Source: Prochlorococcus sp. AG-463-F15 (GTDB lineage Bacteria > Cyanobacteriota > Cyanobacteriia > PCC-6307 > Cyanobiaceae). Taken from it: 35,079 bases of DNA. Under the pieces are notes generated by a model. The model had not been told where the DNA came from, did not search any database, and saw only the letters and a list, made by a program, of their open reading frames with translations. Location of the stretch: assembly GCA_003211755.1 (NCBI GenBank), contig QCRS01000009.1, positions 1-35,079 of the forward strand. Direction: 5' to 3'. This document shows, in pieces, positions 12,061 through 31,709 of the stretch (its first letter is position 1; every line of letters begins with the position of its first letter). Position numbers and translations under genes: made by a program.

Positions 12061-12098
12061 GGTGCTTTAGCGGTCTGCCCTTGAGCAGTGCGAAGGAG

Positions 12099-12126
12099 TT
12101 CCGAATAGCCCGCCTGCCTTTCGGAA
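12099..12126 (-). promoter_or_regulatory. hairpin in the rpsA leader
   Basis: TTCCGAA and TTCGGAA form a perfect 7-bp stem around a 14-base G/C-rich loop, about 40 bases upstream of the rpsA start codon. Its position in the leader would suit control of S1 synthesis, but no such element is known to me for this gene. It could equally be part of the nrdR/rpsA spacer. Confidence 0.3.
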
Positions 12127-12160
12127 TGATTGTGCCACTCTACAGATATGAGCCTCCGAC

Positions 12161-25707: not shown

Positions 25708-25737
25708 TTGCAAGTGGGCTGCTTAATGGTCTAAATT
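25708..25737 (+). promoter_or_regulatory. possible promoter of the rRNA operon
   Basis: TTGCAA (25708-25713), an 18-base gap, then TAAATT (25732-25737): a weak match to a sigma-70 type promoter. It lies just upstream of the structured leader and downstream of the divergent invertase start. The choice is uncertain. Confidence 0.25.
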
Positions 25738-25761
25738 ATTTGGATGTGCAAAGGGCTGAGC

Positions 25762-25913
25762 CCTGAAGCACTTCCCACAGATCTCAAGGCGAAGGTCTTG
25801 ACTTGGTCAGTGGGTGCTTACAAAGCTTGAAGGAGAAATCCTTCGGTGTTGTAAGTTTCAAGTACGGCTATACGGCCGTATCTCCTGATACTTCTTGTAT
25901 GGGAAGTAACAGG
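25762..25913 (+). ncRNA. structured RNA element ahead of the pre-16S stem
   Basis: Closed by CCTG (25762-25765) plus ACTTCCCA (25770-25777) pairing with TGGGAAGT (25900-25907) plus CAGG (25910-25913). Inside are a long hairpin, CTTACAA (25817-25823) with TTGTAAG (25849-25855), carrying GAAGGA-GAAA-TCCTTC with a GNRA-type loop, and a TACGGC/GCCGTA hairpin (25863-25880). It is either the 5' domain of the rRNA leader or a separate small RNA. A 6S-like layout (closing stem, open middle, inner hairpins) is a possibility but not proved. Confidence 0.5.
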
Positions 25914-25919
25914 ACTGAA

Positions 25920-25948
25920 CCTGGACAACTGAAAAGTTTAGGAACTGA
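25920..25948 (+). other. left arm of the outer pre-16S processing stem
   Basis: CCTGGACA (25920-25927) and AAAGTTTAGGAACTGA (25933-25948) are complementary to 27936-27958, after the 16S gene (TCAGTTCCTAAACTTT and TGTCTAGG). The pairing is perfect in the 16-bp part, with one G-T pair in the other. This is the expected RNase III-type stem that brackets pre-16S rRNA. Confidence 0.8.
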
Positions 25949-26044
25949 CGCTTTTATCGCGTCTAGAACTTCTTAGAATTAGCTTTTAAAGGCTTTTTTA
26001 TGATTTCTGGATAGATATGCGATAAGAGTGTGAGGTCCCGTCAA

Positions 26045-26059
26045 AAGAAATTAGTTTCT
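26045..26059 (+). other. left arm of the inner pre-16S processing stem
   Basis: AAGAAATTAGTTTCT occurs here and identically at 27908-27922, on the other side of 16S. The sequence is nearly self-complementary, so the two copies can pair over 14 bases with G-U pairs, nested inside the outer stem. Confidence 0.6.
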
Positions 26060-26320
26060 GAAACCTTTTTGCCACATTTTGTTTAGTTTTCACGGACCAA
26101 GCAAAGTGTGAATGGTGTATCAGGTGGATGAAACGACCGGATCTGAGATCCTGGATAGTCACAAGGAAGAGATTCTTACGTGCACTCTACGAACCCTTCT
26201 CTTTGAATTAAGAGACAGGAGGCTAAAACTACTTTCAGTACGCCAGTGTTGATAAGTGGGTTAAGCAAATCAGACTGAATAGATGCGTTCTAAAAGACTC
26301 TCTATAAAAGGGCCTGATCT

Positions 26321-27804
<1,484 letters not shown>

Positions 27805-27907
27805 ACAGGGAGACAACAACTGATTTTGATGCCTGAATTATTTATTTTTAGGCCATAATCCTGTCACCTTAGGTCGATCGGTACCTCAGTTTTATATTGG
27901 AAAAACT

Positions 27908-27958
27908 AAGAAATTAGTTTCTAAAATCTTAAAATTCAGTTCCTAAACTTTGTCTAGG
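27908..27958 (+). other. right arms of the pre-16S processing stem
   Basis: Holds the inner repeat AAGAAATTAGTTTCT (27908-27922), then TCAGTTCCTAAACTTT (27936-27951) and TGTCTAGG (27951-27958). Both partners lie in the leader upstream of 16S, in nested order. Confidence 0.75.
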
Positions 27959-27981
27959 TCACACCCAACAAGGGTACTCCT

Positions 27982-28137: not shown

Positions 28138-28611
28138 CTGATCACCTCCTGATGACGATGCTTAAGGAGAACTTTTGTTTGATTTGATCTAGAATTTGTT
28201 CTTGATGAATGAACCTAGCTTCTTGTCATACCTTCTGAAATTTTTTCAAGGTTGATAGGATGCTGGGCTCTCTGCAATTTAATTGCAGTGATGTTCAGTA
28301 GAACCTTGACAACTGCATAGGTAAGTCTGGAAAGAATAAAGCATCTCATGGATGCATTGTTTTTTTGGGTCAACTATTAGGATTCTGATTTAATTGGAAT
28401 TTTCGTTTGACTTGAATTGATAATGTTTGATTCTTGAGCAAGAGCCGAGACTCTATAACGCCCTTTCATTGCTTAATTGCTAATGAGAGTTCGATTTTTA
28501 ATTTTCCTTTTTGATACTAATGTATTAGATTATTTCTATTGTATTAGATCAAATTAACTCGAAAATTAAAGAGAAAAGTGTTAACAACACATAGCGTTTT
28601 AGAGATTATAT
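28138..28611 (+). other. second half of the 16S-23S spacer
   Basis: About 470 bp without a gene. It contains a hairpin CTGCAA-n5-TTGCAG (28272-28288) and the left arm of the pre-23S processing stem (28301-28321), whose GAACCTTGACAACTG start resembles the box A region of cyanobacterial spacers. The rest is AT-rich. Confidence 0.7.
28301..28321 (+). other. left arm of the pre-23S processing stem
   Basis: These 21 bases are complementary to 31551-31571, between 23S and 5S, at 20 of 21 positions. This is the expected double-stranded stem for RNase III cutting of pre-23S rRNA. Confidence 0.85.
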
Positions 28612-31486
<2,875 letters not shown>

Positions 31487-31550
31487 TTTTTTGGCTCTTC
31501 GAAAAACAGTTTTATTCTTTTTAGCTTTTAATTCCTTTTGGATTTAAAAG

Positions 31551-31571
31551 CCTATGCAGTTCTCAAGGTTC
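31551..31571 (+). other. right arm of the pre-23S processing stem
   Basis: Complementary to 28301-28321 with one mismatch. It lies between the 23S end and the 5S start. Confidence 0.85.
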
Positions 31572-31591
31572 ACTCTTTGGGAATTTAACTA

Positions 31592-31709
31592 TCTTGGTGT
31601 TCATGGCGATGTGGAACCACTCCGACCCATCTCGAACTCGGTTGTGAAACGCATCAGCGGCGAAGATATTTGGGGGGTAGCCCCCTGAGAAAATAGCTCA
31701 ATGCCAGGT
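31592..31709 (+). rRNA. rrf: 5S ribosomal RNA
   Basis: About 118 bases. It contains the conserved GATGTGGAACCACTCCGACC and CATCTCGAACTCGGTTGTGA core and ends AATGCCAGGT, which pairs with CTTGGTGTT at the start. Ends are approximate to one or two bases. Confidence 0.95.

Follow-up and report, generated by a model that had tools for sequence, protein, structure and literature searches.

RNA elements that act on RNA polymerase from the 5' end of a transcript are known from phage HK022 (put) and Bacillus (EAR). In the rRNA operons of E. coli, the Nus factors have been argued to serve mainly in rRNA maturation, by tethering boxA to the polymerase (PMC4807359). The leader-trailer helix of that organism is essential, the effect of boxA is 2- to 3-fold, and deletion of the boxB part of the leader has little effect (PMC10250234). 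For the locus class described here, an rrn operon leader was already predicted in 2005: cluster 92 of Axmann et al. ("rrn operon leader") was predicted from MED4, SS120, MIT9313 and WH8102, has a 756-column alignment with a Z of -4.47, and is marked as not tested (PMC1242208). The main texts of Voss 2009 (PMC2662882) and Weinberg 2010 (PMC2864571) mention neither rRNA operons nor 16S.

The DNA analysed here (the window) is a stretch of 35,079 nt from Prochlorococcus sp. AG-463-F15, whose genome assembly is 55% complete in 69 contigs. Rfam matches place one rrn operon in the window, on the + strand, which also includes tRNA-Ile and tRNA-Ala (Table 1). The rrn promoter given in the table was not called by a consensus scan; aligned relatives share its layout of TTGC(A) followed by a TA-rich hexamer. 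The rrn operon leader begins with the region 25744-25914, which reaches from the promoter to 2 nt before boxA. We infer that transcription begins at the proposed start, and that the hairpin domain described below is the start of the rRNA transcript. No Rfam family covers this domain. Elsewhere in the window, positions 12067-12147 (- strand) match the Rfam cyano-S1 ribosomal protein leader with 58.4 bits.

Table 1. Features of the rrn operon and its leader in the window.
Feature	Coordinates	Strand	Remarks
Probable rrn promoter	25709..25737	+	TTGCAA (25709-25714), 17 nt, TAAATT (25732-25737); predicted
Hairpin H1	25746..25771	+	GUGC..GGGC-UGA-GCCC..GCAC; MFE in 30 relatives; outer and inner stems covary
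Hairpin H2	25774..25814	+	CCCAC..GUGGG around GGC-GAAG-GUC; MFE in relatives; covariation at both levels
Hairpin H3	25816..25856	+	CUUACAA..UUGUAAG around GGA-GAAA-UCC; MFE in relatives
Hairpin H4	25862..25881	+	UACGGC..GCCGUA; passes tree-based test
Hairpin H5	25883..25914	+	directly 5' of boxA, boxB-like position; MFE in relatives; covariation
Leader boxA-like element GAACCTGGACAACTGAAAAG	25917..25936	+	nearly invariant in family; twin in ITS
Pre-16S leader-trailer helix, 5' strand	25919..25948	+	includes boxA
Small hairpin after boxA	25949..25965	+	GACGC-UUUUAUC-GCGUC; consensus fold, near-invariant stem
16S rRNA	26321..27805	+	Rfam RF00177
Pre-16S helix, 3' strand (trailer)	27935..27961	+	duplex with 25919..25948
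23S rRNA	28612-31487	+	
5S rRNA	31593-31709	+	

A first description, made from the letters alone and hereafter called the sequence-only reading, had singled out the 152 bases from 25762 to 25913 as highly structured. This was borne out: the segment has an MFE of -63.2 kcal/mol, whereas its shuffles average -40.0 (sd 3.8; z -6.15), and none of 200 shuffles folded as well. Chance structure as the source of the fold is ruled out by this z-score and by the excess of covariation given below. Rather than forming one closed domain, 25744-25914 folds as five local hairpins in a row (H1-H5). Three details of the sequence-only reading hold within this fold: its GAAGGA-GAAA-TCCTTC stem-loop is the upper part of H3, its TACGGC/GCCGTA hairpin is H4, and its six-base gap to the pre-16S stem agrees with a helix that starts at about 25919.

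We excised 30 family leaders that span the hairpin region, taken from records of Prochlorococcus, Synechococcus and Cyanobium, and folded each singly. All 30 fold unaided into five abutting hairpins in the same order, with a short linker between H3 and H4 only. In a structure-blind MAFFT alignment of these sequences, 86.3% of the cells at the 50 named pairs are paired, a percentage that is partly built in because the pairs were taken from the window's fold and pruned by pairing quality; sliding the partners by one column lowers pairing to 43%. The stronger argument comes from compensating changes: the covariation among relatives that had been proposed as a check was found for H1-H5, with both-side changes at 33 of the 50 pairs and 131 compensating cells against 50 +/- 6.4 in shuffles. 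In H4, 96% of cells are paired and double changes occur at five of six pairs. G-U cells outnumber A-C cells by 182 to 47. This agrees with folding of the + strand RNA, but base composition by itself would already favour G-U.

Covariation was also assessed by a tree-based test, which is our own imitation of R-scape and not the program itself. Restricted to the structure, it passed 5 of the 50 pairs in the 30-sequence alignment. Under the strict all-pairs form no pair passed in this structure-blind alignment, and three passed in a model-fitted alignment of 51 sequences, all within the structure. The way this second alignment was built favours the structure; in it, every one of the 10 strongest covarying column pairs and 18 of the first 20 belong to the structure, and 19 of the 50 structure pairs pass, located in H1, H2, H4 and H5. 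A further stem enclosing H1-H3 (P0; UUUGGA 25739-25744 with UUUCAA) was rejected: it is paired in 73% of cells but still in 68-69% after a one-column slide, and the transcription start may lie downstream of its 5' arm. At the P0 position of a low-GC genus, CUGG/CCAG is invariant and hence uninformative.

The shape of H1-H5 is kept more than its letters. Column identity averages 64-83% across the hairpin region and 93-100% across boxA and the helix, placing the hairpins among the less sequence-conserved parts of the whole leader. The conserved spots within the domain are the H1 loop CUGAG and the H3 stem CUUACAA/UUGUAAG, the latter being the most conserved of the stems, with changes that are mostly G-U; loop sequence elsewhere mostly drifts. 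Between boxA and 16S, two leader blocks (26015-26054 and 26135-26194) are about 90% conserved in the family, above the hairpin domain. A second hairpin with the CUGAG loop of H1 (GGAUC-UGA-GAUCC, 26138-26150) lies in a leader block of 97% conservation, and it is possible that the two hairpins share a protein site.

The sequence-only reading also had the segment closing on itself by 4 + 8 pairs. The letters are indeed complementary (CCTG 25762-25765 with CAGG 25910-25913; ACTTCCCA 25770-25777 with TGGGAAGT 25900-25907), yet these pairs are missing from the MFE fold, where the arms belong to H1, H2 and H5 instead. Across the 30 relatives the 12 pairs form in 54% of cells and show no covariation (18 compensating cells against 18.4 in shuffles), and none of the 12 passes the tree-based test. 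The true unit begins at 25744, about 18 nt before the segment, and adds H1 and H2, which had gone undescribed. In favour of the suggested likeness to 6S RNA, a polymerase-binding RNA, are the length and this closing stem as read by eye. With the stem not conserved, the MFE fold a chain of hairpins, and no RF00013 match reaching the gathering threshold at the segment, a 6S-like role is extremely improbable, and membership of the 6S family is refuted: the proper 6S gene of this genome lies elsewhere (G000:C1:19328-19510, 83.5 bits). What survives of the interpretation offered there is its other half, an rRNA-operon leader domain that precedes antitermination signals: each rrn operon has one such domain, placed between its promoter and boxA, and the domain covaries in relatives.

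Such a domain might instead act as an attenuator or sensor, in which a ribosomal protein, a nucleotide or a dedicated protein binds the hairpins, sets the flow of polymerase into 16S and tunes rRNA output to growth. The fold is elaborate and lineage-restricted and carries the conserved H1 loop and H3 stem, and Axmann et al. placed the rrn leader among leaders for autogenous control (PMC1242208). We nevertheless regard this as unlikely: a scan from promoter to 16S found no terminator-like site, no conserved, mutually exclusive fold was found (the one alternative stem tested, the closing stem above, does not covary), and most of the loop sequence drifts.

Matches to the leader were found in 210 of 300 family genomes and in 52 of 59 genera, many of them spanning boxA and the helix core alone. 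A covariance model of the domain (R1) finds it at rrn operons of Cyanobiaceae only, in two copies in genomes with two operons and at one place in its own genome. Weak matches outside rrn operons, in G489 (L054, both strands overlapping) and G036:C14 (73 nt, 21 bits), are probably palindrome noise. The covariance model misses one genus of small, low-GC genomes (g18), presumably the high-light Prochlorococcus, yet its leaders fold into H1-H5; the sequence of the hairpins is unrecognisable and boxA is altered to GCACCTAGAAAATTT. In some GC-rich family leaders, one hairpin is missing.

This distribution bears on whether the leader acts in trans, as a stable small RNA of about 180 nt, released when RNase III or another activity cuts at the pre-16S helix. 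The fold is compact, stable and of small-RNA size. However, there is no conserved accessible seed stretch, no copy outside rrn operons and no terminator after the domain, and the MED4 ncRNA paper mentions neither rRNA nor a leader (PMC2518516); a separate small RNA therefore seems quite improbable.

In other cyanobacterial families, where the promoter could be recognised, the interval from promoter to boxA is 33-68 nt and holds one long hairpin; the folding of these short leaders exceeds that of shuffles only slightly (z -0.6 to -2.8). Based on these short leaders outside the family, the expansion of the leader is assigned to the picocyanobacteria. RNAs are generally stabilised by 5' hairpins, and at most a few bases separate H1 from the inferred start, so the hairpins might simply shield the rRNA precursor from RNase E or a 5' exonuclease until subunit assembly. 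As the other cyanobacteria illustrate, one hairpin would be enough for this and five are left without a reason; protection as the sole function is an unlikely explanation.

Next to the hairpins stands the leader boxA (GAACCTGGACAACTG, 25917-25931), which lies 0-2 nt from H5 in family leaders and has a twin, GAACCTTGACAACTG, in the spacer before 23S (28301-28315). We take both elements to be boxA from their position and from the cyanobacterial spacer literature; 0.17 boxA-like matches are expected by chance per window. For both rRNAs, boxA sits in the 5' strand of the leader-trailer helix. The pre-16S duplex (Table 1) reaches -34.2 kcal/mol, where the best of 300 shuffled trailers reaches -19.1, and around the spacer boxA 28286-28329 pairs with 31540-31591 of the 23S trailer at -41.6 (best shuffle -32.7). 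Being protein-bound and being paired are mutually exclusive states of boxA, which suggests a hand-over from one to the other. An invariant local hairpin around boxA (CCUGGAC/GUUUAGG, 25920-25945, -6.6 kcal/mol) can also form and would compete with the leader-trailer helix as well as with Nus binding. No viral copies of the boxA/helix core were found.

NusB (TIGR01951) exceeds its cut-off in 10 of 10 genomes, including that of the window. Rho exceeded its cut-off in none of 96 cyanobacteria and in 8 of 14 control genomes, and the weak Rho matches in cyanobacteria have lengths that fit ATP synthase subunits. As Rho was not found in cyanobacteria, a role in protection from Rho cannot apply and a folding role fits better. 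For the same reason, we claim only the boxA and processing side of the antitermination scheme.

We therefore propose, at about an even chance, that H1-H5 is a co-transcriptional insulator and a boxB-like platform for boxA/Nus-assisted folding of pre-16S in bacteria without Rho. As the polymerase clears the promoter, the first ~170 nt of transcript would immediately fold into a run of five hairpins, leaving hardly any linker free, and this stretch would be kept from base-pairing to boxA, the leader strand or 16S. boxA would then reach the elongating polymerase single-stranded, beside H5, which occupies the position of E. coli boxB. NusB-S10 and other Nus factors may keep boxA on the polymerase until the trailer, made about 2 kb later, pairs with boxA and the strand behind it; the resulting pre-16S helix would be cut by RNase III and the hairpin domain discarded.

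By analogy, the order of the leader (hairpins, boxA beside the last one, helix strand) fits the E. coli tethering scheme. Conserved structure does not by itself demonstrate insulation, and the tolerance of E. coli to loss of boxB is the main caution: the corresponding domain here might be almost dispensable. Other cyanobacteria achieve the same with a one-hairpin leader a third as long, which leaves the expansion unaccounted for. H1-H5 might alternatively be a picocyanobacterial processivity element that binds a lineage-specific factor or the polymerase and alters rrn elongation in organisms without Rho, which we consider rather doubtful.

Prochlorococcus and marine Synechococcus rank among the most abundant phototrophs, and one or two operons supply their rRNA. 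With a fold, boundaries and a searchable model, their rrn leader becomes testable, and the H1-H5 domain could become an Rfam family. Our results also raise the questions of why boxA and Nus factors are kept although Rho is missing, and why a streamlined genome retains ~170 nt of shape-conserved RNA where relatives have ~50.

Among known systems, put and EAR are likewise hairpins that stand close to the 5' end of a long operon's transcript; H1-H5 has no Rfam match, and binding of the polymerase by it would be hypothetical. The nut-like boxB-boxA-boxC leader of E. coli rrn shares the order of promoter, hairpin, boxA and pre-16S helix strand, and likewise has a boxA copy in the spacer before 23S. 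The marks of an antitermination region found here are the leader boxA with its copy before 23S, a hairpin directly upstream (H5, ending at 25914) and an encoded NusB; binding of boxA RNA by NusB-S10, and antitermination itself, are putative. The locus departs from E. coli in having five hairpins (~170 nt) for one boxB, in the position of boxA inside the leader-trailer helix, and in belonging to a lineage without Rho. The short leaders of other cyanobacteria keep the same order of promoter, hairpin, boxA (GAACCTAGACAA), leader strand and 16S, and differ in their length and single long hairpin. Cluster 92 of Axmann et al. belongs to the same locus class, a conserved structured rrn leader; it is a whole-leader cluster, given in the accessible part of that paper without hairpin anatomy, boxA, helix overlap or distribution (PMC1242208). 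The present analysis adds the hairpin anatomy, its covariation, its lineage limits and the finding that boxA overlaps the processing helix.
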